Origin: an uncultured Kordia sp.
GTDB taxonomy: Bacteria; Bacteroidota; Bacteroidia; Flavobacteriales; Flavobacteriaceae
Assembly: GCF_947489565.1 (NCBI RefSeq)
Contig: NZ_CANLEA010000033.1
Location: 1 to 45,799 of the forward strand
Direction: 5' to 3'
DNA length: 45,799 nt
Shown here one piece after another: positions 1,382 through 41,243 of this stretch (position 1 is its first letter; each line of letters begins with the position of its first letter). The notes under the pieces were generated by a model that was given only the letters and a program-made list of their open reading frames with translations, was not told where the DNA came from and did not search any database. A program made the translations under genes and the position numbers.

Positions 1382-1412
1382 TCAGTTAAATTTTAACAAA
1401 TATAGTTTTTAT

Positions 1413-28017: not shown

Positions 28018-28659
28018 TTGAAAAGAGAAAACTTTTTAAAATACTTCCTTTTAACCTATTTAGTTTGTTTGGCTCCTGTAGGAACGTCTATTTTTCCAGA
28101 CGAAACCTTGTCATGGAAAGAAAAAACTGGACTGATTTTGTTAATTCCACTAGGTGTTGCTATCGTACTTGCACCTATCCTTTATTGGCTTCATCCAAAA
28201 TTACATAGAAGACATCGTCGTAAAAGAGCAAAGAAAAAATTATTCAAAACATTTATAGAAAGACATCACTTCAAAGTATTAGAAGACGGCTATGTTGTGG
28301 GGAAAATTGATGAATATATCGTGATTATGCATGCTGCACATAACGAATTTCAAGGTTCTAAATGGATTGAAATTCAAGTTATTTTTAATCCTAAGCAGAA
28401 CAATCAGTATATTGAAAATGAATTCATATATCGTATGATTCGAAAATACAGTGAAAAAAATGTTTCTTGGCATATTAATAGTGTCGTTGTCAAAAAATCA
28501 TATGCTTTAAAAATGCCTAAGTATGAAGTCATATTTCCTATAGTAAAACGTTGTATCTCTGAATTAAAAGCACATAATATTGCTCCTATTTCACATCGTG
28601 AATGGCAGAGTATGATTCCTGAAACACAGCTATACTTAGACAAACTAAAGACATCATGA
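28018..28659 (+). CDS. Small membrane protein, TTG start, function unknown
   Basis: A 213-aa frame that must start at TTG 28018 (MKRENFLKYF), two bases after the preceding stop; the next in-frame ATG lies far inside. Two hydrophobic segments occupy about residues 9-25 and 37-57. They are followed by a strongly basic stretch (HPKLHRRHRRKRAKKKLF), which should be cytoplasmic, and a soluble domain of about 140 residues with no motif I recognise. Its ATGA overlap with the next gene (28656-28659) ties it to the TPR-AraC regulator. A role in relaying or anchoring that regulator is possible but unproven. Confidence 0.7.
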   Translation: MKRENFLKYFLLTYLVCLAPVGTSIFPDETLSWKEKTGLILLIPLGVAIVLAPILYWLHPKLHRRHRRKRAKKKLFKTFIERHHFKVLEDGYVVGKIDEYIVIMHAAHNEFQGSKWIEIQVIFNPKQNNQYIENEFIYRMIRKYSEKNVSWHINSVVVKKSYALKMPKYEVIFPIVKRCISELKAHNIAPISHREWQSMIPETQLYLDKLKTS

Positions 28660-30371
28660 AAAAGTTGTATTACATACTCGTCGCTGTCTTTTTCATACAA
28701 CTCACAGTTGCGCAAACTTCTGAGAAAATAACACAAACTACGCTTCAAAAAGTATCAATTGATAGTTTAAAAAGTGGATTTCGAAAGTTTCAAAAAACAA
28801 ATCCCAACATTGCTAAAGAGTATTTAATTGCACTTTTAAAACAATCTTCTAGTGATTCAAAAGAAATCATCGCGCATAAAATTCATTTTCAGTTGGCGAA
28901 TATGTATAGTACGTTGCGAAATAAAGACAGTGCGTTACATCATATAAATATTGCCATCAAACAAGTTGAAAATGATGAAAAATTCCTTGTCAATCATATC
29001 TATTTTAAAGGAGGTATCTATTATGAATTTGGCGACTATTTAAAAGCAATTGAATTTTACACCAAAGTATACGAGATCGCAAAACAACAAAATGATCTGT
29101 TGGCACAAGCAAATATTGCCAACGATATTGCTTTGATCAAAACGCAAATAGGTCAAAATGCAGACGCATTACAATTGGTAAAGAAAAACATTCCATTTTA
29201 TGAAGATTTAGTGAATCAAAAAGATGGTGCACAGTATGGCTTGCCATATATTAATTCGCTAATGACGATCAGTGACATTTATACAAATATGTTTATTGAT
29301 CAAAGAAAAGCAGATACAAGATATTTAGATTCTGCACAATATTACAATACGATTGCCATCAAAAAGAGCTTGCAATATAATGACGATTTGGGTTTTGCCA
29401 TTTCGCTTGGACTCAAAGGAATTATTCATCACGAAGAAGGCAATATTGAACAAGCTACTACCGATTTGATAAAGGCCGAAGAGTTAATTCAGAATTTAAA
29501 TCTTCCGAGTCGACTCATCATTCTATACTTATACAGAGGTAAAAATTATTATGTCACAGGCAAGTATAAAAAAGCGCTTTCGTATTTTAAAAAAACAGAT
29601 TCTTTAGTACAGCAAACAAAAACCGATTTTCCTGATATTCAAGAATTGTACATTCTCATGGCAAAATCGTACGAGCAACAAAACGATTCTGAAAATGCCA
29701 TCAAATATTTTAATTTGTTTCATCAAAAAGATGCGCGAAACGATGATTTAAATCAGCAACGTTTAGATAAATTGTATCATAAATATGATGTTGTTAAGTT
29801 TAAAGATTCTATTGAGACCTTAGAAACTAATCTTGAAGAAAAAAGTTATCATTATAGTATTATTTTGGGATGTATGTTGTTTGTCATTCTTGGAATTGTG
29901 GTGTATTACAAACGAAAGCAATCACAAAATCAACAACATTTCCAACGTGTTTTAGAGAAATTGAAGCAAAAGAATCAGAAAAAATCTTCTCCTAAAAAAA
30001 TAAATATCAGTCAAGAGAATATTTCAAAAATTCTAGAAGGTTTAACACAGTTCGAAGACAACAAATTATTTCTAAATAAAAATTGTTCTTTGAGTTTTGT
30101 GGCAAATAAAATTAATACAAACAGTACGTATTTATCCAAAGTCATTCAAACACACAAACAAAAAAAGTTCATTCAGTACATCACAGATCTTCGTATTGAT
30201 TATGCTTTGGAGAAACTAACCAACGACAGAAAATTTAGAGCGTATAACATCAGATCAATTGCTGCTGAACTTGGTTATAATTCTGCAGAATCGTTTTCGA
30301 AAGACTTCAAAAGAAGAACCAAATTATATCCTTCGTATTATATCAAAAAAATAAACGAAACTGAAGTCTAA
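28656..30371 (+). CDS. TPR-transmembrane-AraC regulator, copy 1
   Basis: A 571-aa membrane-bound transcription regulator. A signal or first membrane segment (MKKLYYILVAVFFIQLTVAQ) is followed by about 350 residues of TPR-type helical repeats, for example NHIYFKGGIYYEFGDYLKAI and LYLYRGKNYYVTGKYKKALS. One membrane helix lies at about residues 398-416 (SIILGCMLFVILGIVVYY). A basic linker leads to a C-terminal AraC helix-turn-helix domain with SFVANKINTNSTYLSKVIQ, and IRSIAAELGYNSAESFSKDF as second helix-turn-helix. The TPR part should be periplasmic and the AraC part cytoplasmic, a one-component sensor plan known in Bacteroidota. It immediately precedes two GG-leader peptide genes and resembles the regulator at 36532. 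Confidence 0.88.
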   Translation: MKKLYYILVAVFFIQLTVAQTSEKITQTTLQKVSIDSLKSGFRKFQKTNPNIAKEYLIALLKQSSSDSKEIIAHKIHFQLANMYSTLRNKDSALHHINIAIKQVENDEKFLVNHIYFKGGIYYEFGDYLKAIEFYTKVYEIAKQQNDLLAQANIANDIALIKTQIGQNADALQLVKKNIPFYEDLVNQKDGAQYGLPYINSLMTISDIYTNMFIDQRKADTRYLDSAQYYNTIAIKKSLQYNDDLGFAISLGLKGIIHHEEGNIEQATTDLIKAEELIQNLNLPSRLIILYLYRGKNYYVTGKYKKALSYFKKTDSLVQQTKTDFPDIQELYILMAKSYEQQNDSENAIKYFNLFHQKDARNDDLNQQRLDKLYHKYDVVKFKDSIETLETNLEEKSYHYSIILGCMLFVILGIVVYYKRKQSQNQQHFQRVLEKLKQKNQKKSSPKKINISQENISKILEGLTQFEDNKLFLNKNCSLSFVANKINTNSTYLSKVIQTHKQKKFIQYITDLRIDYALEKLTNDRKFRAYNIRSIAAELGYNSAESFSKDFKRRTKLYPSYYIKKINETEV

Positions 30372-30386
30372 AAAACCAAATAGTGC

Positions 30387-30427
30387 TCGAAATTATTGGA
30401 TTTCGACTATAAACCCTTGATTTCAAA
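30387..30427 (+). promoter_or_regulatory. Candidate AraC operator upstream of the GG-peptide pair
   Basis: The inverted repeat TCGAAAT-N6-ATTTCGA spans 30387-30406. TTGGATTTCGA (30396-30406) is partly repeated in direct orientation exactly 20 bases on, as CTTGATTTCAA (30416-30426, 8 of 11 identical). The 12-mer TCGAAATTATTG recurs upstream of the peptide gene at 31344. The site lies 45-85 bases before the ATG at 30472. Binding by the adjacent regulator is inferred. Confidence 0.45.
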
Positions 30428-30471
30428 GAGATGTGCTTCTATATTAGCATCAAAAAATAACATTAAGACAT

Positions 30472-30729
30472 ATGAAAAAATTAAGCTTAAAAAAGATGCA
30501 AATTGCCAAAATTGGAAATATCCATTCAGTATTTGGCGGCTCTGAAAACTCAAATGCAGTCACAATTTGTGAAGAAACAGGAGCAGTTTCAGTCACATGT
30601 TTTACTAACTGTAATTGTGGTAATAACATCACAAACTTACCCAATAGTTGTAAAACAGGTTATCCAAGTAATACCAGACCTAACAATAGTGTTCAACTAT
30701 CTGCAACTTGTCCTGATTTACAAGGATAG
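30472..30729 (+). CDS. GG-leader Cys-rich peptide precursor, pair member 1
   Basis: An 85-aa peptide with a flavobacterial natural-product leader (MKKLSLKKMQIAKIGNI) ending in Gly-Gly at residues 22-23. Six Cys lie in the remaining 62 residues, many next to Ser/Thr (VTICEETG, VSVTCFTNCNC, LSATCP). The leader pattern LxLxKxxI..GG is like that of Bacteroidota class I lanthipeptide-type precursors. The ending ATCPDLQG and the start SENSNAVTICEETG are shared with the next gene. No dehydratase, cyclase, radical SAM enzyme or peptidase-ABC exporter is visible in the window, so maturation and export are unknown. It follows the TPR-AraC gene by 100 bases. Confidence 0.8.
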   Translation: MKKLSLKKMQIAKIGNIHSVFGGSENSNAVTICEETGAVSVTCFTNCNCGNNITNLPNSCKTGYPSNTRPNNSVQLSATCPDLQG

Positions 30730-30807
30730 TTTTTGATTCAAAAACTAAGAACAAAGAAATTTTTATTTAAAAAAACACTCATTTTTCCTTTACAAATACT
30801 TTAAATC

Positions 30808-31056
30808 ATGCGAAAATTAAAATTATATAAGTATAAAATTGCTGCAATAAACACTCCTAATCTTCTTTTGGGTGGCTCTGAAAACTCAAATGCAATCACA
30901 ATTTGTGAAGAAACTGGTGAGGTTTCAGTCACTTGTCATACAAATAGTTGTGATGAACAAACCAACCAACCTGCAAGCTGTAATCAAACAAATCCAGGTG
31001 ATTCGAGACCTAACTCAAGTATCAAACTTTCAGCTACGTGTCCAGGATTAGGATAA
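30808..31056 (+). CDS. GG-leader Cys-rich peptide precursor, pair member 2
   Basis: An 82-aa paralogue of the preceding gene. The leader MRKLKLYKYKIAAINTPN ends in Gly-Gly at residues 22-23. The core begins SENSNAITICEETGEVSVTC and ends SIKLSATCPGLG, with five Cys in all. The middle of the core has diverged more than its ends: HTNSCDEQTNQPASC replaces a Gly/Asn/Cys cluster. It lies 78 bases after its partner and ends before a bidirectional terminator. Tandem duplication with core diversification is typical of secreted or modified peptides. Confidence 0.8.
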   Translation: MRKLKLYKYKIAAINTPNLLLGGSENSNAITICEETGEVSVTCHTNSCDEQTNQPASCNQTNPGDSRPNSSIKLSATCPGLG

Positions 31057-31080
31057 CAGTACTAGTTGACTTCAAAAAAA

Positions 31081-31116
31081 AAGGGAAAGCGAATATATGT
31101 CGCTTTCCCTTTTTTC
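31081..31116. terminator. Bidirectional terminator between convergent peptide genes
   Basis: A 12-bp stem AAGGGAAAGCGA / TCGCTTTCCCTT with a 7-base loop. A T run follows on the plus strand and an A9 run precedes it. It separates the plus-strand peptide pair from the minus-strand peptide gene. Confidence 0.92.
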
Positions 31117-31119
31117 TTT

Positions 31120-31344
31120 TTAACGAGCACAAATACCTACATCGTCACAAGAAATAGTTGGGCATCCATTTGTCAGTGGTGGTGGCGGACATGTATTATT
31201 AGAACCTCCTCCTGTTGGAGCACAAATTCCAACTCCCGGACATGAAATAAGTGTAATAAACGTTCCTCCTTTTACTGAAGATTCTTGTAAACTAGAAATA
31301 GACTTTTTGTTTAATTGTAAACTTTTGAATTGTTGCTTTTTCAT
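31120..31344 (-). CDS. GG-leader Cys-rich peptide precursor on the opposite strand
   Basis: A 74-aa peptide whose leader FKSLQLNKKSISSLQ ends in Gly-Gly at residues 26-27. The core has six Cys and an internal duplication: ISCPGVGICAP early and ISCDDVGICAR at the very C-terminus, joined by a Gly/Asn/Pro-rich middle (GGGSNNTCPPPPL). The leader resembles those of the four peptides at 35.2-36.3 kb (L-x-L-x-K-x-x-I-S), while the core is different. It is convergent with the peptide pair, and its control region shares a 12-base word with theirs. No processing gene is adjacent. Confidence 0.78.
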   Translation of the reverse strand: MKKQQFKSLQLNKKSISSLQESSVKGGTFITLISCPGVGICAPTGGGSNNTCPPPPLTNGCPTISCDDVGICAR

Positions 31345-31415
31345 CTTTTTAAATATTTTAATGATTAATACGAATCAAAGATATATTGCAGAGTTTGTTG
31401 AAAAAACAGCGCTTA

Positions 31416-31458
31416 CTCGACATTCAACAATCACAAGTCGAAATTATTGAAATCTCGA
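31416..31458 (-). promoter_or_regulatory. Candidate operator upstream of the minus-strand peptide gene
   Basis: TCGAAATTATTGAAATCTCGA (31438-31458) has inverted ends (TCGA/TCGA) and shares TCGAAATTATTG with the site at 30387. TCGACATT at 31417-31424 repeats TCGAAATT at 31438-31445 with 21-base spacing and 7 of 8 bases the same. It lies 70-115 bases upstream of the start at 31344. The 308-base gap 31345-31652 otherwise holds only the promoter region of the next plus-strand gene. Confidence 0.42.
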
Positions 31459-31599
31459 CCACAAAACAGGAATCTCATTTTTGTGCAGATGGTCTAAAAA
31501 AACTTTATTTTTCTATTATAAAGCAGCATTTTTCTTTAAGAATTTTAAATTGCATAGTGCATTCGCTGTAACAAGCAACAAAAATTAGCTACTTATAAA

Positions 31600-31628
31600 G
31601 TATCTTAGCAAGAGATACCTTATTTTTG
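31600..31628 (+). promoter_or_regulatory. Promoter with overlapping inverted repeat upstream of the 415-aa gene
   Basis: TATTTTTG at 31621-31628 fits TAnnTTTG exactly, 24 bases before the ATG at 31653. GTATCT (31600-31605) and AGATAC (31613-31618) form an inverted repeat in the spacer, placed where a regulator could block the promoter. No clear -33 TTG is present. This shows the downstream three genes can be transcribed on their own. Confidence 0.45.
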
Positions 31629-31652
31629 AAAAAAGGTGAATTAAATTAACAC

Positions 31653-32900
31653 ATGGAAAAATTAAAACGATCTGAATTATTTGGCGCTGCCTTAGTCCCT
31701 GTAACTGGTGCTTTGGTAGAACGCTATAATAAATGTCTTTCTTTTATTGGAACTGCGCCAACACAACTCAAAAGTTTTCATATTGATGTCACAGGTTGGA
31801 GTCCAGAAATTGCTGATGAAAAAGATGATTTTTTATATTTAAATTCGGGGGAAGCCAATCCAAATGCTATTATTCTTTCGCCTAAACAAAACGAAAAACC
31901 TGCATATTCGCCTTTTCATAGTTTTGATAAAGACATTATGCATCACATATTTAAAAAGCAAAATCACATTATTAAAGACATTACGCGTGATGCCGCAATT
32001 TGTGTTGATTTAAACCAATATATAGATGCTTTTTATGAACCTGAAGACTTATTAAAATACAATCAGATTTCTGTTGATTTTACGGTTGTTGAAGATTTAT
32101 ACAACATACAACAACAACAATTAAAGTTGATTGAAGAGTTTCATGAAGAAGATAATTTTTTAGAAGAAAATCTGCATTTAAAAATTTTAGCTTCTGCTAG
32201 AAAACATGGAGATTTACGTTCGCGAACGCTCAAAATGGATCGCATGAATTTCTTAACGACTTCTTTTTACACAAAAGCCTTTGGTGGCGTATACGTGATT
32301 AGAAAGCAAGAAAGCGGAAAAAATATTTTAATTTTTGAAAATAAAGAAGAAGCTGACAAAGTAAAAACTTCGAACAAAACAAAATCATTTCACATTAGTG
32401 ATGGACGCTTTTTTAGTGCTTTGGCCGCTGAAAAAATGCTCATTCTAGATCCTGAAAAAAGCGATGAAATTGGATATTTTGAACGTGTGAAAAAAATAAT
32501 TTTCTTATCACATATTAAAGATGCTACACATTCATTAAGTGATATTATAGAGAACTCAAATGTATACAAACGATATTTGAATCGCTTAAGCCCAGATACG
32601 CGTAAGCAACTTATGATTATAAATCGTATGCAACTCAAAGCAAAAGATGCCAATGCGCTGGCTGTTGAAGGCGGATTGACTCCAGAAATATTGGCATGTA
32701 TTCAAATACCATCTCCAGACATTCCTGTGAAATTACAGGAACTTATTTGGAAGCTTATTGTAAAAACGTCCGCATATAAAGATCCACTTTTCTTGTATTG
32801 GTACGACAAGGAAACATTTTATAAAGAATATAATTCTTGGGATGGCTCCTATCAAGATTGGGTCATAAAATTAATTAAACAAAACACCTGGAACTCATGA
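31653..32900 (+). CDS. Uncharacterised soluble protein, 415 aa (possibly DUF6638-like)
   Basis: A cytoplasmic protein without signal or membrane helix and no catalytic motif that I can assign. It is mixed alpha/beta in the N-terminal half (SFHIDVTGWSPEIADEKDDF, FDKDIMHHIFKKQNHIIKDI) and helical towards the C-terminus (KQLMIINRMQLKAKDANALA; then a Trp/Tyr-rich end). From memory it may belong to a Bacteroidota family called DUF6638, but I hold that loosely. Its stop overlaps the next start by four bases (ATGA at 32897), so it forms an operon with two membrane-protein genes. I suspect a link with the AAA+ gene 6.7 kb upstream. Confidence 0.75.
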   Translation: MEKLKRSELFGAALVPVTGALVERYNKCLSFIGTAPTQLKSFHIDVTGWSPEIADEKDDFLYLNSGEANPNAIILSPKQNEKPAYSPFHSFDKDIMHHIFKKQNHIIKDITRDAAICVDLNQYIDAFYEPEDLLKYNQISVDFTVVEDLYNIQQQQLKLIEEFHEEDNFLEENLHLKILASARKHGDLRSRTLKMDRMNFLTTSFYTKAFGGVYVIRKQESGKNILIFENKEEADKVKTSNKTKSFHISDGRFFSALAAEKMLILDPEKSDEIGYFERVKKIIFLSHIKDATHSLSDIIENSNVYKRYLNRLSPDTRKQLMIINRMQLKAKDANALAVEGGLTPEILACIQIPSPDIPVKLQELIWKLIVKTSAYKDPLFLYWYDKETFYKEYNSWDGSYQDWVIKLIKQNTWNS

Positions 32901-33436
32901 ACATATTAGAAGTTATCATATTTGCTTCAAGCGTTGTTTTTGGAATCAGCATTTACTGGTTAGAATCTAAAAACAATAAATTATATCGATTTTTCAATAA
33001 ACTTTTCAATTCTAAGGAATTGCAAATACCCGCAAATAGCAAAAAAGGATTTATCATAGAACAAGGATTTATGCCAAGATTTATCTACATAAATATTTTC
33101 TTAATTTTTGTGTTGATTGTGGTATTATTTCTTCCTATTATAAAAAATATTGGAATCCAATATCAATATGTATCTGCTTTGATTGGAATTATGATCGGAA
33201 TCTATCTAGGTAATTTTATGATCAGCATTAAAGATAAATCTGAAGAAATCATTGATCAAGTGGTTGATACCGGCAAAGAAATTATTGACGATCTAAAAAC
33301 CAAAGGGAAAGAAGCTGTGGACAGTTTATCTGATGATAAAAAAGCGGAAACAACCGAAGAAAAAACAACCGAAGAACCAGAAGCACCAAAAAAGAGTGCT
33401 AGAGAACGTTTAAAAGATAAAGGACTAATAAAGTAA
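32897..33436 (+). CDS. Small membrane protein with cytoplasmic acidic/basic tail
   Basis: The 179-aa product has three hydrophobic segments (about residues 4-21, 60-80 and 90-112). After these comes an amphipathic stretch, KSEEIIDQVVDTGKEIIDDL, that recalls YtxH/late-embryogenesis-type helices, and then a Glu/Thr/Lys/Pro-rich tail ending in a basic RERLKDKGLIK. There is no signal peptide and no enzyme motif. It overlaps the 415-aa gene by four bases and precedes the 545-aa membrane protein gene by five, so the three should be made together. A membrane anchor for the soluble partner is a reasonable guess. Confidence 0.75.
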   Translation: MNILEVIIFASSVVFGISIYWLESKNNKLYRFFNKLFNSKELQIPANSKKGFIIEQGFMPRFIYINIFLIFVLIVVLFLPIIKNIGIQYQYVSALIGIMIGIYLGNFMISIKDKSEEIIDQVVDTGKEIIDDLKTKGKEAVDSLSDDKKAETTEEKTTEEPEAPKKSARERLKDKGLIK

Positions 33437-33441
33437 GAACT

Positions 33442-35079
33442 ATGTTAAAAAGATTTTGGAACCGTGGAACAAAACAAAAAATCATTCTTATTGTTGTAGG
33501 ATTGATTCTTTTCTGTGCGCTTTTTATTTTAAGAGATGAATATCAGCCGTTTTTGCTCTTTTTAAGAAAGTACTTATTTGTATTATTATTGTTTGGTGTG
33601 ATTCTGTTTTTTGGAATCAGATTTGTTCGAAGAACAGTCAGTACACCCAAAAAAATACTCAAAGGTTTTTTAACCTTAGCCAGTATCGTATTGGTTTATA
33701 TTGTTTTATTTACCGTAGGAATGTATGAATATATGCAGACCTATAACGTATACAACAATATGAATTTGCAAGAAATTGCAGATTTACCATTGAGTAGAAA
33801 CGAGCGCATTCAGCCATACAATAATATCAAAACAATGGCGTATGAATCTATTACAGAAACACAAGAAGTTTCGGCTCCGCAATTGGTTCGTGTAGACGAT
33901 CGTAACCAATGGACTATGGCCGTGCAACCTTCTCAAGAATATTTTATACAGCGTACAAAAGACAATATTGAAGAATTATTTTCAGTGTCAAGTACGTCGC
34001 CTTCTCCTCGTTTTTCAAACGATAATAGAATTAAAGCAACATTCTCTATTGGTGAATCGTTAGCCTTTAGTAGAAACACCTATAATGCGGTTGTACAACG
34101 TTTCAATCCTTGGCAGTTGTTTAATTATGAGCCGCATGAAGCGTATTATATGAAAAACGATCAAGGAAAATGGGTTCAGGTGGTTAGTTTGATTAAATGG
34201 AATGGTTTCTTTTTCCCATATCCAACTTTTGGTGGTGTGATGGTTGTAGAAACTGGAGAACACGATTTTAATGATTATTTAGAACGCTTGTTGATTGGTA
34301 AAGGAACTTTTATTCCCGCAGAAGAAGTTCACAAGTATCCATATTTAACACGTCAAAATACCTTATCGGAAAAAGTATCACGCATTCAAGCAAAATCAAT
34401 GATGTTTTTAGGCGGATTTACAGATCCACTTCCGTGGAATAAGAAAACGGCAGTGAAAATTCCAGATTTAAAAGAAGATCAAAATCAGCAACCTTTTGTA
34501 ACCGATTTTAAATTTACAGGAACAACTGATAGTGCTTATGACGGTTTGTATCATTGGTTTGGTTTAGAACCTATTGGAAATGAACGTACAGGTTTATCAA
34601 TCAGTGTTTTTATTCCTGCAGACGGAAGCGACAAAGTGTATTACTATAACCACGCTAACAAAAAAGAAGGTTTGGCAGGAGTTTCTGCAATGCCAGCCAA
34701 AGTAATGGAATCACGCAAAGAATACGATTGGAACGTGAATAAACCTGTTGAATTTAGACCTTTTATTAGAGATATTGCAGGAAAAAGACGTTTGTTCATG
34801 TTGAGTACTATTGCTGCAAAACGTGAAAACAGCAATCAGTTTGATGGTGGTTCTACACCCGATTTAGCTTTGGTTGATGTTTCGTATAAAGATGTCGTTT
34901 GGATTGATGCAAAACATCCTTCAAAATGGAATGAACAAATTGTCAATCAATTGGGAGAAACTTGGAAAATAAGTGAAAAATTATCCGACTCAGACATCTA
35001 TCCAAACAGAAAACGCACACCGGAAATTGATTCTACGACCGTTGTAAAAGATACTATTGTTAACGATACTTTGAAATAA
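33442..35079 (+). CDS. Membrane protein with large extracytoplasmic domain, function unknown
   Basis: A 545-aa protein with three membrane helices near the N-terminus (about residues 13-31, 38-58 and 73-95). These are followed by some 440 residues likely to face the periplasm, rich in strands and aromatic residues (WVQVVSLIKWNGFFFPYPTF, YHWFGLEPIG, WIDAKHPSKWNEQ). The C-terminus is a low-complexity Thr/Val/Asp tail. I recognise no family. It is the last gene of the three-gene set and ends before a bidirectional terminator. The domain could be a substrate-binding or structural part of a membrane complex driven by the AAA+ ATPase, but that is inference. Confidence 0.75.
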   Translation: MLKRFWNRGTKQKIILIVVGLILFCALFILRDEYQPFLLFLRKYLFVLLLFGVILFFGIRFVRRTVSTPKKILKGFLTLASIVLVYIVLFTVGMYEYMQTYNVYNNMNLQEIADLPLSRNERIQPYNNIKTMAYESITETQEVSAPQLVRVDDRNQWTMAVQPSQEYFIQRTKDNIEELFSVSSTSPSPRFSNDNRIKATFSIGESLAFSRNTYNAVVQRFNPWQLFNYEPHEAYYMKNDQGKWVQVVSLIKWNGFFFPYPTFGGVMVVETGEHDFNDYLERLLIGKGTFIPAEEVHKYPYLTRQNTLSEKVSRIQAKSMMFLGGFTDPLPWNKKTAVKIPDLKEDQNQQPFVTDFKFTGTTDSAYDGLYHWFGLEPIGNERTGLSISVFIPADGSDKVYYYNHANKKEGLAGVSAMPAKVMESRKEYDWNVNKPVEFRPFIRDIAGKRRLFMLSTIAAKRENSNQFDGGSTPDLALVDVSYKDVVWIDAKHPSKWNEQIVNQLGETWKISEKLSDSDIYPNRKRTPEIDSTTVVKDTIVNDTLK

Positions 35080-35144
35080 ACACACTTACGAACACATACA
35101 AATCGTTGATGCCATTCATATAATTTGCACACGATAATTCATGA

Positions 35145-35180
35145 AAAATCATGGTTGAGAAAATTTTCAACCATGATTTT
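35145..35180. terminator. Bidirectional terminator between the membrane-protein gene and the peptide array
   Basis: A 14-bp perfect stem AAAATCATGGTTGA / TCAACCATGATTTT with an 8-base loop. It lies 65 bases past the plus-strand stop and 34 bases past the minus-strand peptide stop. Confidence 0.85.
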
Positions 35181-35214
35181 GATTTTAGTTCAGTTTGTAA
35201 TTATTCGCTTTGAA

Positions 35215-35382
35215 TTAGTCACAAGCAAAACACAATGTTTTTTTACATAAAGTAAGTACTTGTAACGTTGAAGCAGGCGGAATTGGTTTTGAAGGACGCG
35301 CGCCTCCATTAATTAATGTTTCTTGAATAGTTGCGATCGTTTTCTTCGATACTTTTAATTTCTTTAAACTTCTCTTTTTCAT
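35215..35382 (-). CDS. GG-leader peptide precursor, array member 4 (55 aa)
   Basis: A complete small gene starts at ATG 35382. The leader (MKKRSLKKLKVSKKTIATI) ends in Gly-Gly at residues 26-27. The core begins ARPSKPIPPASTLQ and ends LCKKTLCFACD, giving the motif C-x4-C-F-x-C at the C-terminus that all four array members share in similar form. No homologue of a modifying enzyme is nearby. A terminator-like hairpin follows, so each array unit may be transcribed separately as well as by readthrough. It is the most distal unit relative to the divergent regulator. Confidence 0.78.
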   Translation of the reverse strand: MKKRSLKKLKVSKKTIATIQETLINGGARPSKPIPPASTLQVLTLCKKTLCFACD

Positions 35383-35494
35383 TTTGGTTTTAATTTAAAA
35401 GGTTCATAAAATAAAGACAGTTATAGAATTATTGGGGAAACCGTGTATTCTATTGAAATTAAATCGCTTGTAATAATTTAAGTATTGACTTGTA

Positions 35495-35522
35495 AAAGAA
35501 ACGGTTAAAAAACCGCTTCTTT
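35495..35522 (-). terminator. Hairpin downstream of array member 3
   Basis: AAAGAAACGGTT pairs with AACCGCTTCTTT (one mismatch, A4 loop), 24 bases after the stop of the gene at 35546-35716. It resembles the hairpin at 35814-35842 in sequence (GAAGCG core) and position, which suggests that gene and hairpin were duplicated together. Confidence 0.55.
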
Positions 35523-35545
35523 CATTTCAACAATACTATATTAAA

Positions 35546-35716
35546 TTATTTACACTCATAACATGCTGATATTCTGCACGAATCTACCCATGGCATTGTA
35601 GATGCTGGTGGAACACAACCTCCTCTGGTTCTTTGAGCTTCTCCTCCGCTGATAGCATTCATATTAGAAATTGTTCTCTTTGTAAAAGTCAAGTTTTTTA
35701 AATTCTGTTTTTTCAT
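35546..35716 (-). CDS. GG-leader peptide precursor, array member 3 (56 aa)
   Basis: Starts at ATG 35716. The leader MKKQNLKNLTFTKRTISNMN ends in Gly-Gly at residues 24-25 and is nearly the same as in the neighbouring member. The core begins EAQRTRGGCVPPASTMPW and ends CRISACYECK, a C-x4-C-Y-x-C ending. The words RTRG, GCVP and SACYEC are shared with array member 2, so these two are the closest pair. A perfect 19-bp palindrome lies 78 bases upstream. The function is unknown: a signalling peptide, bacteriocin or modified natural product are all open. Confidence 0.8.
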   Translation of the reverse strand: MKKQNLKNLTFTKRTISNMNAISGGEAQRTRGGCVPPASTMPWVDSCRISACYECK

Positions 35717-35793
35717 TTTTGTTTTGATTTAAAAGATTTATAGATAAACAGTATTGGGAATTGTAGGAGAAAACCATTTTTTGAATTAGCCGC

Positions 35794-35812
35794 TTATAAT
35801 GAGTCATTATAA
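35794..35812. promoter_or_regulatory. Perfect 19-bp palindrome in the peptide array
   Basis: TTATAATGAGTCATTATAA: two 9-base arms around a central G. It lies 78 bases upstream of array member 3 and directly before the hairpin that ends member 2. A related but degenerate CGCTTGTAATAATT occurs at the equivalent place upstream of member 4 (about 35465). It may be an operator. Confidence 0.5.
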
Positions 35813-35813
35813 C

Positions 35814-35842
35814 GAAAGAAACGACTTGCAGTCGCTTCTTTC
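35814..35842 (-). terminator. Hairpin downstream of array member 2
   Basis: GAAAGAA-A-CGACT pairs with AGTCG-C-TTCTTTC around a TGC loop (12 pairs with one opposed mismatch), 21 bases after the stop of the gene at 35864-36037. Its U-rich end on the minus strand is moderate. Confidence 0.6.
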
Positions 35843-35863
35843 TTTTAAAGCAATACTATATAA

Positions 35864-36037
35864 TTATGAACATTCATAGCATGCTGATACTGGACAAGTA
35901 CGCTGATAAGTCAATGGCCTAACTGGAACACAGCCATCGCCTCTTGTTCTACGATCTTGCGCTCCTCCGTTGATAATTTCTAATTGAGAAATAACGCTCT
36001 TTGTCAATTTTAGATTTTTTAAATTCTGCTTTTTCAT
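35864..36037 (-). CDS. GG-leader peptide precursor, array member 2 (57 aa)
   Basis: Starts at ATG 36037. The leader MKKQNLKNLKLTKSVISQLE ends in Gly-Gly at residues 24-25. The core begins AQDRRTRGDGCVPVRPL and ends CPVSACYECS, that is C-x4-C-Y-x-C one residue from the end. Leader and core are both close to array member 3. The high number of Arg and the shared RTRG..GCVP block suggest a defined core scaffold rather than a random tail. No exporter or protease for the Gly-Gly site is visible in the window. Confidence 0.8.
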   Translation of the reverse strand: MKKQNLKNLKLTKSVISQLEIINGGAQDRRTRGDGCVPVRPLTYQRTCPVSACYECS

Positions 36038-36139
36038 TTTAATAAGGTTTAAAAGGGTTCGTAATAAATTGTTGTGGTATTAATATGTAGAGAAATAGAA
36101 ATACTATGCATTCCTATGTAAGCCGCTCATTCTGTTTTG

Positions 36140-36316
36140 TTATTGACACGCGTAACAATACGATGCACAATTACTATATCTTGCCGAAATAGGAACAGGT
36201 CTGTATGGTTTGGACGCTCTTAAGGTATCAATAGCGCCTCCTTGCAACATTTCTGTGGTTATTTTAGAAATGGTTTTCTTAGTCAGTGTCAAGTTTTTCA
36301 GGTCTTTTTTTTTCAT
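36140..36316 (-). CDS. GG-leader peptide precursor, array member 1 (58 aa)
   Basis: Starts at ATG 36316, next to the divergent regulator. The leader MKKKDLKNLTLTKKTISKI ends in Gly-Gly at residues 26-27. The core begins AIDTLRASKPYRPVPISAR and ends CASYCYACQ, a C-x3-C-Y-x-C ending, one residue shorter between the first two Cys than in the other members. The KPYRPVPISA segment recalls RPSKPIPPAS of member 4. The shared control region with the TPR-AraC gene carries 20-base-spaced direct repeats. Confidence 0.78.
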   Translation of the reverse strand: MKKKDLKNLTLTKKTISKITTEMLQGGAIDTLRASKPYRPVPISARYSNCASYCYACQ

Positions 36317-36391
36317 TGTTTTAGTTTTGTTTGGTTAACAATGCCGCTAAATAACAGGGGAATTTTGAGAGAAAAAAAAGAGCTTCTTGCC

Positions 36392-36426
36392 AATTTATGA
36401 AACGTCTTGATAATTTATAAAAAGTC
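36392..36426. promoter_or_regulatory. Direct-repeat operator in the divergent regulator/peptide control region
   Basis: AATTTATGAAACGTC (36392-36406) and AATTTATAAAAAGTC (36412-36426) match at 12 of 15 bases with a start-to-start distance of 20 bases, two turns on one DNA face. A third copy, AATTTATAAATTGTC, lies at 38245 before the next peptide gene. Tandem direct half-sites of this spacing are typical of AraC-family regulators. The protein that binds is inferred. Confidence 0.55.
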
Positions 36427-36478
36427 AAATTTCTTTGGTCAAAAAGTGCTTTTTACGCTGTTTTACTTGGAATGAAAT

Positions 36479-36508
36479 TTTGGTAAACAATTCAATATCT
36501 CTATTTTG
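36479..36508 (+). promoter_or_regulatory. Candidate promoter of the second TPR-AraC gene
   Basis: TTTG at 36479-36482, a 19-base spacer, then TATTTTG at 36502-36508, close to TAnnTTTG. It lies 23 bases upstream of the ATG at 36532 and downstream of the direct repeats. Confidence 0.4.
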
Positions 36509-36531
36509 CGAATAAATCTTTGCTATAACAA

Positions 36532-38253
36532 ATGATACAAAATAGCCTACCGCGCATTTACAGATACTTCTTAATACTACTTTCTTTTCTTTCATTAGAA
36601 TTATCTGCTCAAACAGAAATAAAACAACTTAACCTCAGTTCACTTTCATTCGATGAACTCGATTCATTATTCATGACGGATCAGAATACTGATTTTAAAT
36701 CCTTAGAAATATATGCGCAAAAAATGTTGGCAATCGCTAGAAAATCGAACGATTTAGATCAAAAGAATATAGCGTTTTACAAACTCGCCTTAGCATATAA
36801 ACGACAAGGAAAAAAAGTAAACTTAACACAAGCTATTGATAGTCTTCAGTATTATGCAACCAAAGCTAATGACTCCTACATGCTTGTCAGTTGTTATAAC
36901 TTGAAAGGAACAATAGCTTATGAAGATGGAGATTTGGAGACTGCTTTTTCTAATTATAAAAAAATCATTACCGTAAATGCAAATTCAGACGATCCGTATA
37001 TGAGTTGGGTTGCGTTGAATAATATTGCACTCATCAAGAAAGAATTGCAAACACCTAAAGAAGCATTAAAAGATGTACATATTGCGTTAAAAGGTTTTGC
37101 AAAAGAAAAAGAGTTCTACAGTGAAATTAGTGCCATGCATCTTATTGGAGAGTTATATTTAGATATGTTTCGCGTAGAAGCAAATGCTAAATATTTAGAC
37201 TCCACGCAATTTTATGTAGACTCCGGACTAAAGAAAAGCAAGCAATACGATGATACTTTTGGATATTTTCTGTTCTTAAGCACACAAGGACAATGGTTTC
37301 AAGCTACAAAACAATACGACAAAGCTTTGAAAGCTTTTCAGGAGGCATTGCACTATTTTGAAGAAAACAATGATGCCAAATGGAAGATATTTTTGTACTT
37401 ATATTTAGGACGATTGCATGATGAAACCAAAGCACATCAAGCTGCTATTGACATACTCGAAAAAGCAAGTGCTCTTTTAGCTACTAAAGATTTTCATTTT
37501 AATGACACTGCTGAAATCTTCTTATTGCTCACTAAAAACTATTTTCATGTAAATAATCACGAGAAAGCAGATCAATACTTTGAGAAATACAAAAACTCAA
37601 GTGGTAAAGTGCAACAAGACAATCGAAAGTTATACGCAAAATTGCAGAATGCGTATAATGTTTCTGTGTTAGAAAAAAAGATTTCTCAGATAGAAACTCA
37701 GGCTACCTATCAACAAAAAATTATTTTATTAATTACCATCATTGGAATTATTGGGATCGGAATCGTTGCGTTATTTTATTATAGAAAGAATCGTTATAAT
37801 AGTAAAAAGTTAGCGGAGATTCTTGAAAAAATTGACACTAAAACTCGTAAAGAAACACACAATCTTACCACAGTTCACACTAAAAAAATTGAAGATGTAG
37901 AAGTGAAACGTATTTTAGCTTCTTTAGCACAATTAGAAAATACCGAATACTTTTTAGCCGTAAGTTGTACTTTAAATTCCGTAGCCAAAGAAATTGATAC
38001 AAATACGTCTTACCTTTCCAAAATTGTGAATGAATATAAAGGGAAATCATTTGCAAATTACTTGAATGAATATCGAATTAATAAAGTATTGGTCAAATTA
38101 AAATCTGAAAAACACTATCAACAATACACCCTAAAATATATTGCCGAACAGTTTGGTTTTGCTCGTCATGAAACCTTTAGCAGAGTTTTTAAAAAGCAAA
38201 CAGGCATCTCTCCTTCCTACTATTTAAAGAAGATAAAATATGATAATTTATAA
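36532..38253 (+). CDS. TPR-transmembrane-AraC regulator, copy 2
   Basis: A 573-aa paralogue of the regulator at 28656 with the same plan: N-terminal signal or membrane segment (YFLILLSFLSLELSAQ), TPR-type repeats over about 350 residues (SCYNLKGTIAYEDGDLETAF, YLYLGRLHDETKAHQAAIDI), one membrane helix near residues 398-418 (IILLITIIGIIGIGIVALFY), a basic linker and a C-terminal AraC domain. That domain has NSVAKEIDTNTSYLSKIVN and LKYIAEQFGFARHETFSRVF as its two helix-turn-helix elements, ending SPSYYLKKI. It is divergent from the four-peptide array and 78 bases upstream of another GG-leader gene. I infer that it senses a periplasmic signal and controls the peptides. Confidence 0.88.
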   Translation: MIQNSLPRIYRYFLILLSFLSLELSAQTEIKQLNLSSLSFDELDSLFMTDQNTDFKSLEIYAQKMLAIARKSNDLDQKNIAFYKLALAYKRQGKKVNLTQAIDSLQYYATKANDSYMLVSCYNLKGTIAYEDGDLETAFSNYKKIITVNANSDDPYMSWVALNNIALIKKELQTPKEALKDVHIALKGFAKEKEFYSEISAMHLIGELYLDMFRVEANAKYLDSTQFYVDSGLKKSKQYDDTFGYFLFLSTQGQWFQATKQYDKALKAFQEALHYFEENNDAKWKIFLYLYLGRLHDETKAHQAAIDILEKASALLATKDFHFNDTAEIFLLLTKNYFHVNNHEKADQYFEKYKNSSGKVQQDNRKLYAKLQNAYNVSVLEKKISQIETQATYQQKIILLITIIGIIGIGIVALFYYRKNRYNSKKLAEILEKIDTKTRKETHNLTTVHTKKIEDVEVKRILASLAQLENTEYFLAVSCTLNSVAKEIDTNTSYLSKIVNEYKGKSFANYLNEYRINKVLVKLKSEKHYQQYTLKYIAEQFGFARHETFSRVFKKQTGISPSYYLKKIKYDNL

Positions 38254-38259
38254 ATTGTC
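38245..38259 (+). promoter_or_regulatory. Third copy of the AATTTATAAA-GTC box
   Basis: AATTTATAAATTGTC matches the box at 36412 at 13 of 15 bases. It overlaps the regulator stop codon and lies 73 bases before the GG-leader gene at 38332. Only a weak second half follows at 20-base spacing. Confidence 0.45.
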
Positions 38260-38331
38260 AAGCTAACTTTTATTTTCATAAGGTTCAATCGCATACATTT
38301 ACATACCTATTTAATTAAACCTAGAAACCTT

Positions 38332-38529
38332 ATGAAAAAACTTCATTTTACGAAAAAGACAATTTCCAGCATGGAAAATTTACATCAACTTACGGGAGGT
38401 GCTGCTGGAACCCAAGAAACTCGTTTTTGCGACACACAAGAAGAGTGTACTTATTCAGCCGTTCCGGGTTGTCCAATAACATCATCAAGAGCTACAGAAA
38501 GTAGAAGCAGAAGTCGCGGAGGCAATTAG
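38332..38529 (+). CDS. GG-leader peptide precursor after the second regulator
   Basis: A 65-aa peptide whose leader MKKLHFTKKTISSMENLHQ ends in Gly-Gly at residues 22-23. The core has three Cys (RFCDTQEECTYSAVPGCP) and a Ser/Arg-rich tail (ESRSRSRGGN). The leader matches the array family (TKKTIS), but the C-terminal three-Cys ending is absent, so this is a different core type. It is preceded by a copy of the candidate operator and is convergent with the histidine kinase gene. Confidence 0.75.
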   Translation: MKKLHFTKKTISSMENLHQLTGGAAGTQETRFCDTQEECTYSAVPGCPITSSRATESRSRSRGGN

Positions 38530-38557
38530 TAAAATCTATTATTTAATACTCTAAAAA

Positions 38558-40489
38558 CTATCGTAGCGGAATATTGAGAACAACTTCGGTTCCTCTTGGA
38601 TTTTCATATTGATCTTTTAAATCCATGAAGTGAATGGTAAAACTGTTTTTGAAACCTTTTACAAAATTTGTCAAACGATTTTTGGTGAGTGTTATCCCGA
38701 TAGACTTTCGTTTTACAATTTTATTGGCTGCGATTTTTTGTGCAGCTTCACGACCAATTCCATTATCTTCTATTGCAATAGTCACAAAATCTCCTTGTGT
38801 TTTTGACACGGACAATTTTATGTTTTTTTCTCCTTTTTTGGACGATAATCCATGCCAAAGTGCATTTTCTAAGAAAGGTTGCAATACAAGTGATGGAATT
38901 TTTATTTGCTCAAGATTGATAGATTCATCAACCAATACTTCAAAATTAATCTCATTAGAGAAACGAATGTTTTCAATACTCATGTACAAATCCATGGTTT
39001 CCAATTCGTCACTCAAAGAAACTACTTTTACGCGGGAAGCATCTAGTATTTTACGAATGAGTTTTGCGAATTTATTCAAGTAATGTACCGCATTTTTTTG
39101 CTCATTACTAATGATATATTGTTTGATGGAGTTCAACGAATTAAATACGAAATGCGGATTCATTTGACTTCGAAGCATGTCTTGTTCTAGCGTTAAAATC
39201 TTCTTTTCATTGTTTAGCAAACGCTGTCTGTACAAAATGTAAATCATAATTGCCAAAAATGCCAACACTACACTACTTGTAACCCAAATATTTTTATTTC
39301 GTTGCAACGTTTCCTTTACGGTAGCGTTTTCTTTTTCAAGATTTTCTATTTTCTGACTGTATCTTTCTTGATCGTTCTTTACAATCAAATCATTGACATA
39401 CCTAAAATTTTGATCATTTCTAATCTTTTCATTCAATTCGTATGATTGCTCTCTATACGATAAAGCTTCTTCAAATTCTCCTTGTCTTTGAGACAACGTA
39501 GATAGATGCATATAGGCTTCTGCAACAGCACTTTTTAGATTGAATTCTTTCGAAAGTTCCAAACCTTCATTTAAGAATTTCTCCGCGAGTTTATAGTTTT
39601 TCAATTCCAGATATACCCAACCTAAATTAAGGTAAACGCCTGAAAGATGGAAGTTGTCTCGCAGTCCTTCTCCAATTTTTAAGGCTTTGGTAATAATTTT
39701 AACGGCTTCTTGATATTTTTCTTGCTGAATGTAGATTCTACCAATAGTAGAATTACAGATAAGACGTCCTAAATCAGAATCAATCTCATTGTTGTAGCGC
39801 AACGATTCTCTGTAATCAACAAGTGCGCCTTCTAAATCTCCAGTGGCTTCCTTAGCATACCCAATATTATGGTAATTAATTGCCAAGCCCAGTTTATTAT
39901 CGACACTCTTTTCAATTTTCATTGATTTTTGGAAACGCTGTATCGCTAAATCGTATTGTTCTAAAGCCAAATAAATATTTCCCATACTATTCAGGGAAAC
40001 AGCAATACTTTTCTTGACAACTTTTGTACGTTCTTCGATACTTTCTGCAAGTACTAATGCTTCTTGGTGATAATCTAATGCTTTTCGTATATCTTCAAGT
40101 CTACGATACACTACACCTAGCATATTCAATGATCGTACATGTAGTTGTTTGTTTTCGGCTTCTTGCGCTTTGGTTAAAGCTTTGTCATGGAATAAAATAG
40201 CTTTGTCATATTGAGAAGTATTTCGGCAATATTCGCCTATTGCATTTAGCGTATAACTTTCTCCTTCTAGATATTTCTTTTCTTTATAAAGGTCTAAGAT
40301 GTATTGAAGTTTTAGAGAATCTTTTTTATAAGCTCTCAGTTTTCCATCTATTTCTCCATATTCTTTAACTTTTTCTTGTAAAAGTGCATTCGCTTCCTTC
40401 ACCAACGTATTGTCTACAGTTTGTGAAAAGCTAAGGGTAGATAAGAAGAGGGAAAGAATGAGTAATACATTCTTAGGTAATTGGCACAT
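38558..40489 (-). CDS. TPR sensor histidine kinase of the LytS/YehU type
   Basis: A 643-aa membrane kinase. Signal peptide (MCQLPKNVLLILSLFLSTLSFSQ), then about 350 residues of TPR repeats (NMLGVVYRRLEDIRKALDYH, NSMGNIYLALEQYDLAIQRF), a coiled coil, one membrane helix near residue 405 (WVTSSVVLAFLAIMIYILY) and a His_kinase domain. That domain has the phospho-acceptor block RSQMNPHFVFNSLNSIKQYI and the ATPase parts LQPFLENALWHGLS and IEDNGIGREAAQK. The kinase lies 16 bases downstream of a LytTR response regulator, its expected partner. The pair diverges from three secreted-protein genes, which may be its targets. The TPR-membrane plan parallels that of the two AraC regulators next door. Confidence 0.92.
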   Translation of the reverse strand: MCQLPKNVLLILSLFLSTLSFSQTVDNTLVKEANALLQEKVKEYGEIDGKLRAYKKDSLKLQYILDLYKEKKYLEGESYTLNAIGEYCRNTSQYDKAILFHDKALTKAQEAENKQLHVRSLNMLGVVYRRLEDIRKALDYHQEALVLAESIEERTKVVKKSIAVSLNSMGNIYLALEQYDLAIQRFQKSMKIEKSVDNKLGLAINYHNIGYAKEATGDLEGALVDYRESLRYNNEIDSDLGRLICNSTIGRIYIQQEKYQEAVKIITKALKIGEGLRDNFHLSGVYLNLGWVYLELKNYKLAEKFLNEGLELSKEFNLKSAVAEAYMHLSTLSQRQGEFEEALSYREQSYELNEKIRNDQNFRYVNDLIVKNDQERYSQKIENLEKENATVKETLQRNKNIWVTSSVVLAFLAIMIYILYRQRLLNNEKKILTLEQDMLRSQMNPHFVFNSLNSIKQYIISNEQKNAVHYLNKFAKLIRKILDASRVKVVSLSDELETMDLYMSIENIRFSNEINFEVLVDESINLEQIKIPSLVLQPFLENALWHGLSSKKGEKNIKLSVSKTQGDFVTIAIEDNGIGREAAQKIAANKIVKRKSIGITLTKNRLTNFVKGFKNSFTIHFMDLKDQYENPRGTEVVLNIPLR

Positions 40490-40505
40490 ACACTTTAAAT
40501 TTTCT

Positions 40506-41243
40506 TTATAATTTTTCTAAGAACGCTGCTTTGCGTTGTCTTGAAATTGGTATTTTATGATTGGAAACCAAAATGACGTAGCCATCAGATTTTATAAACT
40601 CTTTGATTTTGTCTAAATTGACAATATATGAATTGTGGATTCTAAAAAAACGTTCATCAGGCAGCATTGCATTTACTTCTTTCAGTTTTTTTGTCAGCAC
40701 TATTTTCTTTGAATTGGTCAAATATAATGTACTGTAGTTTCCGTCAGATTCTGCAAAAAGTAAATCATCTAAGTCCAGAAAAATTAGTTTTCCATCCGTA
40801 TTGATGGTAATTCGTTTTTTATTGAATCGGCTATTATAATCAGATAAAATGCGTTCAAACTTTTCGGTAGAAACATCATTTCTAGAAATATATTTTTTCA
40901 CTTTCGAAATGGCTACTTTCAAGTCATCCATATCAATCGGTTTCAACAAATAATCGATCGCTTCTTCTTTTAACGCTTTAATAGCGTATTCATTATAAGC
41001 AGTTGTGATGATCACAGCAAAATCCTTTGATTTTAACATGTTTAAGAACTGAAAACCATCCATAGTGGGCATTTCTATATCTAAAAAAAGACAATCACAT
41101 GGAGTTTTTTCTATATACTTTAAAGCTTCTTCCGGATCGGTAAATGTAGCGAGTATTTCAATCTCGTCGCTAAAATTATCTAGCTCCCATGAAAGGCTTT
41201 CAAGAGCTTTAGGTTCGTCATCTATTAAAATTGCTTTTAACAT
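40506..41243 (-). CDS. LytTR-type response regulator
   Basis: I start this gene at 41243 (MLKAILIDDEPKALESL); the frame is open upstream, but the extra 21 codons do not belong to a receiver domain. The 245-aa protein has a receiver domain (residues 1-120) with acidic pocket D8/D9, phospho-acceptor D55 in LFLDIEMPTMDGFQF, and ITTAYNEYAIKALKEEAIDYLLKPI. A LytTR DNA-binding domain follows (about residues 140-245: ADGNYSTLYLT-type text here is SDGNYSTLYLTNSKKIVLTK, then FFRIHNSYIVNLDKI and ISRQRKAAFLEKL). It is cotranscribed with the kinase gene. LytTR proteins bind direct repeats; I found no convincing site. Confidence 0.92.
   Translation of the reverse strand: MLKAILIDDEPKALESLSWELDNFSDEIEILATFTDPEEALKYIEKTPCDCLFLDIEMPTMDGFQFLNMLKSKDFAVIITTAYNEYAIKALKEEAIDYLLKPIDMDDLKVAISKVKKYISRNDVSTEKFERILSDYNSRFNKKRITINTDGKLIFLDLDDLLFAESDGNYSTLYLTNSKKIVLTKKLKEVNAMLPDERFFRIHNSYIVNLDKIKEFIKSDGYVILVSNHKIPISRQRKAAFLEKL

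Follow-up and report, generated by a model that had tools for sequence, protein, structure and literature searches.

RRNPP signaling systems consist of two adjacent genes and are known from Firmicutes; their receptors are intracellular proteins of 250 to 500 amino acids (aa), and their propeptides are of the SEC or SHP type (PMC10075063). In the Alo systems of Paenibacillus, a single genome holds up to 40 receptors, 27 of them with a peptide, and more than 25 pairs of a tetratricopeptide repeat (TPR) receptor and a peptide in one Firmicutes genome have been termed a record (PMC7425212). Bacteroidetes have been described by Walker et al. to encode class I lanthipeptide precursors with LxLxKx5L leaders, many of which end in GG, with C39 proteases in their clusters (PMC7268733). 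A survey of Bacteroidales reports TPR genes in two clusters for ribosomally synthesized and posttranslationally modified peptides (RiPPs) and touches on pheromone binding (PMC10352776). Here we analyze a stretch of 45,799 nucleotides from an uncultured Kordia sp. (contig NZ_CANLEA010000033.1 of assembly GCF_947489565.1), called the window throughout. It encodes two paralogous regulators, R1 and R2 (571 and 573 aa), each with a TPR part, a membrane segment, and an AraC-type DNA-binding domain, and eight peptide open reading frames (ORFs), p1 to p8, every one with a Lys-rich leader and GG; all of them lie where the original prediction, made from the letters of the window, had placed them (Table 1). 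The cassette of regulator and peptide and the operator that we predict for it are very strongly supported by computation. No description of TPR-membrane-AraC regulators paired with GG-leader peptides was found among the titles and abstract beginnings listed by the literature searches.

Regulators paired with leader peptides

The genome of the window contains 47 matches to R1 and R2 at 100 bits or more, R1 and R2 included; two of the matches are interrupted by an internal stop, and another two are fragmentary. An ORF that fits a regular expression for the leader lies within 3 kb of 36 of the 47, compared with 2 of 50 control genes taken from 20 fixed-grid stretches (p=1.6e-14); in three other genomes of the genus (G002, G003, and G006), the same expression marked 21 of 29 regulators but only 2 of 15 positions displaced from them by some 100 kb. 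The association is therefore beyond chance, and the enrichment that the original prediction had expected around such regulators is present in both comparisons. Matches to NF038153, the NCBIfam model of the class I lanthipeptide leader, gave 26 of 47 regulators versus 3 of 35 weaker homologues when counted alone.

The regular expression missed p1, p2, and p8. A strict test took the first small ORF downstream on the same strand and demanded at least four Lys or Arg among its first 20 residues and G[GAS] near residue 13 to 45. Such a partner stands behind 69 of 74 regulator copies versus 3 of 138 control genes in the four genomes (41/45 in that of the window, 8/8 in G002, 10/11 in G003, and 10/10 in G006), and one of the three control matches resembles a true leader peptide. 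The 74 copies include two fragments and one internal-stop copy in G006; the two internal-stop matches of the window's genome gave no ORF and were excluded. G002, which we take to be K. algicida OT-1, has 17 regulators, and the eight paired ones are those sampled. The spacer between regulator and peptide has a median of 95 bp and measures 49 to 150 bp in 68 of the 69 pairs. Among copies longer than 500 aa, 40 of 43 in the window's genome and 66 of 69 in all four genomes are directly paired. The set of 67 pairs used below is the 69 minus two paired fragment or internal-stop copies (spacers of 257 and 95 bp). The copies with a single internal stop are G000:C17:45730, G000:C14:104005, and G006:C1:3920329, and at G000:C8:129772-139591 four regulators stand in tandem, each with its own peptide behind it.

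R1 and R2 are 31% identical. Both, and also the regulator linked to LanB (see below), have a C-terminal HTH_18 domain above the Pfam cut-off, which assigns them to the AraC/XylS type, and R1 and R2 have a single hydrophobic segment between the TPR and helix-turn-helix (HTH) parts. The AlphaFold model of R1 shows helical repeats at residues 35 to 376, then one long helix (379 to 441) in which the hydrophobic segment lies, and finally a DNA-binding domain that is likewise helical (454 to 570). The 43 full-length copies in this genome are 538 to 627 aa long. An N-terminal hydrophobic core was detected in 64 of 69 copies longer than 500 aa versus 8 of 414 background windows when 11 residues were averaged, and in 41 of 71 regulators with a stricter window of 19 residues. 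Hydropathy placed a membrane segment upstream of the HTH part in 71 of 71 regulators, 120 to 230 residues from the C terminus, and in 64 of these 71 the flank of the segment that faces the HTH part has more Lys and Arg. These hydrophobic segments and the charge bias fit a periplasmic TPR domain and a cytoplasmic HTH domain.

The peptides directly behind R1 and R2 are p1 and p8, respectively; the remaining six are additional. The peptide leaders are short and Lys-rich and end in GG, with no hydrophobic signal visible on inspection of the sequence; they are of the Bacteroidetes class I lanthipeptide type. None of the window peptides reaches the NF038153 cut-off of 22 bits, and p1, p2, and p8, like p6, have no match to it. 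Genome-wide, there are 67 matches at E<=0.02, and at least 36 matches outside the window attain 22 bits.

A predicted operator before the peptide genes

A palindrome upstream of p8 that recurs in the p7-R2 intergenic region was spotted by eye in the output of a motif search and was then tested. Palindromes with the core TTTATAAA occur in 17 of the 67 spacers but in none of 224 control 3' flanks and none of 218 control upstream regions; their density is 2.6 per kb in spacers and, over 534 kb of control stretches, 0.0075 per kb. If any core is allowed, 31 of 67 pairs, compared with 7 of 218 controls, have a 20-bp palindrome with at least 8 of 10 positions paired whose center falls at −86 to −70 relative to the peptide start. 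A free search from −150 to −20 placed all 23 palindromes of at least 9 of 10 at −91 to −74, about 79 bp before the peptide, with a standard deviation of 5.0 to the peptide start versus 14.9 to the regulator stop. The corresponding values for the −86 to −70 set (3.5 versus 13.6) are bounded by the window that defines it, and we prefer those of the free set. A terminator was considered and rejected: because the distance is fixed to the peptide start and varies to the regulator stop, the palindrome is predicted to be the operator of the peptide promoter.

The operator differs between loci. Among the 45 pairs with a palindrome of at least 7 of 10, the arms are TGA..TCA in 15, TCG..CGA in 4, GTG..CAC in 4, and others in the rest. 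Peptides that are not directly paired but lie within 3 kb of a regulator carry the operator of that regulator (n=24, mean rank 0.175 versus 0.5 expected, p=2.6e-5), which is best or tied for 12 of the 24. The G006 orthologue of the R1 operator is TCGAAATCCAATAATTTCGA, at −72. Hence, the proposal that each regulator controls the peptide genes next to it gains from predicted operators that are fixed in position and specific to the locus.

The TGA-class pattern, TGAYNNTTTATAAANNRTCA, occurs at 11 places in the window's genome and at 70 places over 11 genomes of the genus, and the reversed pattern at none in either search; the window holds two matches (the TGATAATTTATAAAAAGTCA and TGATAATTTATAAATTGTCA sites) versus 0.02 expected. 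Ten of the 11 places in the window's genome precede leader-type peptides, namely four paired ones, three others in regulator loci, and three with no regulator nearby, whose sites lie at −75, −76, and −79 (for the last, the second ATG is the reference; the first gives −61). In a sample of 19 distinct sites from the 70 in the genus, 12 precede a peptide by 75 to 85 bp versus 21 of 2,000 random positions. One of the seven misses, locus L205 of G005, failed on the Lys/Arg count only and has a p8-like peptide at −89.

Further sites and searches touch on the operator. In L191 (G002, K. algicida; 1500-1706), two TGA-class operators lie about 195 and 81 bp before an ORF of 326 aa with a signal-like N terminus, which is a possible nonpeptide target of a cassette. 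In L206 (G006; 1500-1607), a perfect TGA-class palindrome lies about 96 bp before an ORF of 471 aa that also begins signal-like, and at G000:C18:8248 (L186) and in L208 (G008), one lies 86 bp before an ORF of 128 aa, and a peptide is missing at the usual distance. The imperfect repeat upstream of p3 was not recovered when the R1 operator was used for a 20-bp scan. A greedy search with 14- and 20-mers for a promoter motif shared by p4 to p8 or by p1 to p3 gave nothing clearly above shuffled sequences. The Bacteroidetes promoter word TAnnTTTG was found in 16 of 67 spacers versus 5.0 expected from mononucleotide shuffles, a weak control, and was not used.

Maturation island, distribution, and window content

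The original prediction had called the peptides orphans, having noted that the window holds no lanthipeptide enzyme, radical SAM enzyme, or peptidase-ABC exporter. The absence was confirmed: a Pfam scan of 30 window proteins, which did not cover some shorter ORFs, found no lanthipeptide enzyme, radical SAM enzyme, or C39 exporter, and genome-wide searches for LanB and C39 gave no match on the window's contig. However, the genome has a complete class I island elsewhere, with its single LanB. The gene order is LanC, LanB (759 aa), the C-terminal part of LanB as an ORF of its own (302 aa), a regulator of the window family, and the peptides of this regulator, with HlyD and a C39-ABC exporter on the opposite strand; all Pfam assignments are above cut-off (Lant_dehydr_N 8e-150, Lant_dehydr_C 2e-72, LANC_like 3e-47, HlyD_3, and Peptidase_C39-ABC). 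Because the only LanB adjoins LanC, the exporter, and a cassette of its own, the window peptides are not orphans, and the R1 and R2 loci are predicted satellites of a common center of maturation and export. A maturation operon with its own regulator and peptides had been named in advance as an outcome that would count against the earlier interpretation; its discovery overturns the word orphan and leaves the circuit unaffected.

Exactly one LanB (E<=1e-10) is present in each of the 11 genomes of the genus, along with 14 to 46 regulators per genome at E<=1e-45, and among the matches listed every genome has one regulator within a few kb of LanB. The wider family was sampled with 149 genomes including that of the window, in which regulator counts per genome are lower bounds. 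LanB was found in 14 and the regulator (E<=1e-80) in 34 of the 148 other genomes, the latter in 13 of 14 genomes with LanB versus 21 of 134 without (p=7e-9). Outside the genus, all eight regulators adjoining LanB are paired with a peptide. Among 52 regulator places examined, of at least 65 outside the window's genome, 3 of 22 in LanB-less genomes are paired, and one of these three peptides is not leader-like. In 16 paired cassettes of the family that were checked, a palindrome of at least 8 of 10 is present in 7 or 8.

Twenty named relatives of LanB come from eight Kordia and from Lacinutrix, Leptobacterium, Psychroserpens, Aquimarina, one Flavobacteriaceae, and one Candidatus Aminicenantes metagenome-assembled genome; the last (L227) is 49% identical and sits on a short contig, for which contamination and transfer are both possible. 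At the Kordia loci, 11 of 11 regulators are paired, with a palindrome of 8 to 9 of 10 at −75 to −79. Six of the other 12 loci have no regulator within about 7 kb, and in the rest 8 of 12 regulators are paired.

Table 1. Regulators, peptides, and predicted operators in the window
Feature	Position	Strand	Evidence or remark
R1, TPR-membrane-AraC regulator, 571 aa	28656..30371	+	TPR_12 and HTH_18 above Pfam cut-off; AlphaFold model with mean predicted local distance difference test (pLDDT) score of 89
Predicted R1 operator TCGAAATTATTGGATTTCGA	30387..30406	.	inverted repeat 7 of 10, center 75 bp upstream of p1
p1, GG-leader peptide, R1 partner 100 bp downstream	30472..30729	+	orthologous pair in G006
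p2, second p1-like copy	30808..31056	+	ORF, leader
p3, GG-leader peptide	31120..31344	-	best NF038153 match in the window, 20.5 bits (cut-off 22)
Imperfect inverted repeat TCGA...TCGA	31438..31458	.	upstream of p3, center −104; resembles R1 operator; single case, no statistics
p4, GG-leader peptide	35215..35382	-	NF038153, 14.8 bits
p5, GG-leader peptide	35546..35716	-	NF038153, 17.3 bits
p6, GG-leader peptide	35864..36037	-	ORF, leader; no NF038153 match
p7, GG-leader peptide, divergent from R2	36140..36316	-	NF038153, 12.7 bits
Predicted R2 operator TGATAATTTATAAAAAGTCA	36408..36427	.	between p7 and R2; center −101 of p7, −114 of R2
R2, TPR-membrane-AraC regulator, 573 aa	36532..38253	+	TPR repeats and HTH_18 above Pfam cut-off
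Predicted R2 operator TGATAATTTATAAATTGTCA	38241..38260	.	palindrome 9 of 10, center −81 of p8; overlaps R2 stop
p8, GG-leader peptide, R2 partner 78 bp downstream	38332..38529	+	similar cassette, operator at −89, in G005 locus L205

DUF6638 and the two further genes that separate the R1 and R2 loci (31653-35079) have no RiPP function according to Pfam, and the same holds for 20 more window proteins scanned; an Rfam scan of the window returned two tRNAs only. Phage cargo was rejected, the region 36100-38600 having no match in the phage collection. A TPR histidine kinase (His_kinase) and a LytTR response regulator (38558-41306) adjoin R2-p8, and a near-identical kinase ORF also stands beside an R2-like regulator in L205, so this neighborhood looks conserved. 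At its start (140-5288), the window encodes two proteins of the type IX secretion system, PorV and a large peptidase of the C25 family; the latter we take from its position to be PorU-like.

The proposed circuit, its rivals, and known systems

We hypothesize that a regulator and the small gene downstream of it act as one signaling cassette. The single LanB/LanC would probably dehydrate and cyclize the peptide; after cleavage at GG and export through the C39 transporter, the peptide would bind the TPR groove of its own regulator in the periplasm. Binding would alter the membrane-tied AraC domain, which would then bind its own palindrome and activate the paired peptide gene in a positive feedback. 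Further targets would be additional precursor genes at that locus, together with a small number of unlinked genes, and dozens of cassettes would operate in parallel as private channels feeding a single set of enzymes and exporter. That the receptor directly senses its own paired peptide is the best reading of the sequence data and, in our judgment, a probable one. The interpretation put forward originally is partly upheld: the association, the control of the peptide genes, and the signaling circuit as the best reading stand, with peptide sensing itself as the step that we infer, and the idea of orphan peptides without maturation falls.

Co-variation bears on this sensing step. In the 45 pairs with a palindrome of at least 7 of 10, analyzed by permutations without a phylogeny model, operator similarity followed the HTH domain given the TPR domain (0.29, p=0.0005) more than the TPR domain given the HTH domain (0.13, p=0.016), and core similarity followed TPR given HTH (0.47, p=0.0005) but not clearly HTH given TPR (0.05, p=0.18). 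All 67 pairs gave 0.37 (p=0.001) for the core with TPR given HTH. The operator-HTH signal persists among distant pairs (0.28 versus 0.12). The palindromes thus appear to track the DNA-binding domain and the cores the TPR domain, the latter fading among distant pairs.

An alternative needs no peptide sensing: the regulator would control the local lanthipeptide genes through the palindrome, its TPR domain would sense envelope stress, a prey compound, or another protein, and the peptides would be toxins or interaction factors. The predicted operators and the local regulon do not require a sensed peptide, and most peptides do resemble lanthipeptide substrates, since Cys is present in 66 of 67 paired cores of the genus (mean 3.7), which could carry lanthionine rings, and in all 78 unpaired cores of the window's genome (mean 5.1), which have less negative charge than the paired ones. 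However, a peptide stands directly behind nearly every regulator even where there are other peptides elsewhere, and the paired leaders differ from the others (LNK in 5 of 67 versus 38 of 78). Moreover, in LanB genomes beyond the genus, 4 of the 14 paired peptides (L147, L150, L152, and L157) have no Cys and cannot form lanthionine; a ring is therefore not required for pairing, which favors a signaling role. The core also follows TPR rather than HTH, with the fading just mentioned. Taken together, we regard this alternative as the main rival, though a rather unlikely one. A regulator that senses its own lanthipeptide as a threat, the neighboring peptide being the sensed bacteriocin and not a signal, would have the identical anatomy, and many cassettes adjoin extra precursor genes; but the TGA-class operators of the window's genome precede peptide genes at all places except one, and a gene-by-gene reading of two loci, in the absence of a systematic search of cassette neighborhoods, revealed no gene of the immunity type, which makes this explanation improbable. 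Least credible is that the cassettes spread by duplication, with co-variation as linked descent and most copies functionless, as the damaged copies among the 47 and the failure of core co-variation to separate TPR from HTH among distant pairs could suggest, because the operator keeps its distance to the peptide though spacer length varies, sites also precede unlinked peptide genes, and the operator follows HTH beyond TPR in distant pairs as well.

Several observations weigh against direct sensing of the paired peptide or limit its support. The criteria for the palindrome were fixed after it had been seen, 36 of 67 pairs lack a strong one, and of the TGA-class misses other than L205, three lie 81 to 96 bp before another ORF and three are unexplained. 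Orthologous pairs were counted several times in the pair sets; 11 of 47 regulator matches have no leader of the regular-expression type within 3 kb, and 5 of 74 copies have no direct partner. Below 50% TPR identity, the core correlates equally with TPR (0.283) and HTH (0.284), so its co-variation is carried largely by close relatives and may in part be linkage; over all 67 pairs, a weak correlation of core with HTH remains when TPR is held constant (0.09, p=0.02). When each of four LanB islands was searched for its own operator, only the sites of the cassettes themselves turned up, and neither the LanB operon nor the exporter was preceded by one; control of the maturation enzymes by the cassettes is therefore unsupported. 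Autoregulation of the regulators is weakly supported: core palindromes lie upstream of 4 of 67 (versus 0 of 218), and the rank of the own operator there is not significant (p=0.11). The numbers of regulators and leaders correlate over the 11 genomes (rho 0.83), but larger genomes also tend to have more of each (rho 0.92 and 0.67). Pairing in the LanB genomes of the family sample is limited to 14 of 30 regulators; L146 (G087) and L149 (G112) are tandem arrays of TPR-AraC regulators with no peptide between them, the former with seven regulators among the matches listed. At named LanB loci with a regulator, 4 of 23 regulators are unpaired, all in Aquimarina, whose palindromes at the expected place are weak (5 to 7 of 10). 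Finally, TPRs are common scaffolds, and eukaryotic peptide binders led the fold matches, ahead of Rap and NprR.

If the receptors do sense their paired peptides, the cassettes would represent a class of communication not described before, in which membrane-spanning one-component receptors read RiPP-type, partly lanthionine-containing, peptides in the periplasm, with about 40 insulated channels of receptor, peptide, and operator around a common maturation and export center in one Gram-negative genome; we see the chances that this whole reading holds as evenly balanced. Receptor, peptide, and operator are all named, and hence the idea is directly testable. The release of protease by K. algicida responds to conditioned medium; the study that reported this detected no acyl homoserine lactone and did not identify the factor (PMC3117869); in a later study, activity was not restored by fresh medium, and nutrient starvation was indicated (PMC10565126). 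In this species, two predicted operators precede the gene of a secreted-type protein. If our hypothesis is true, the cassettes supply named candidates for the density-dependent signal in protease release, a link that we put forward as a proposal.

The cassettes resemble the RRNPP/RRNPPA systems (Rap-Phr, NprR-NprX, and PlcR-PapR) and Alo in that a gene for a TPR receptor is followed by a small propeptide gene, with many paralogous pairs per genome, and RRNPP/RRNPPA receptors likewise tend to regulate adjacent genes. The directly adjacent propeptide gene that defines RRNPP systems is present here (69/74 versus 3/138). The intracellular receptor of 250 to 500 aa is not: the Kordia receptors are longer, start with a hydrophobic signal, and include a membrane segment, their DNA-binding domain is C-terminal and of the AraC type, and the propeptide has a GG leader of the RiPP type. 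In autoinduced lantibiotic operons such as that of nisin (NisRK), a lanthipeptide-type product controls the peptide genes, as we propose for Kordia. The receptor here would be a one-component TPR-membrane-AraC protein in place of a histidine kinase and response regulator, and many cassettes would act in parallel.

With more than 25 pairs termed the Firmicutes record (PMC7425212), the 40 of 43 full-length receptors that are directly paired in this single genome stand out. Leader type, split LanB (as in pinensin), LanC, and C39 exporter are shared with the Bacteroidetes class I lanthipeptides (PMC7268733), but the Kordia precursors are scattered over the genome, many clusters having their own regulator and operator. 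In the prochlorosins of picocyanobacteria (ProcM/ProcA and SyncM/SyncA), one enzyme also serves many partly unlinked precursors (PMC7268733, PMC9872173). The Kordia enzymes are of class I and not class II and are accompanied by a dedicated regulator-operator system, of which the excerpts of these papers make no mention for prochlorosins. The Kordia cassettes may be regarded as a class I counterpart to the prochlorosin logic of one enzyme and many precursors, with built-in addressing.

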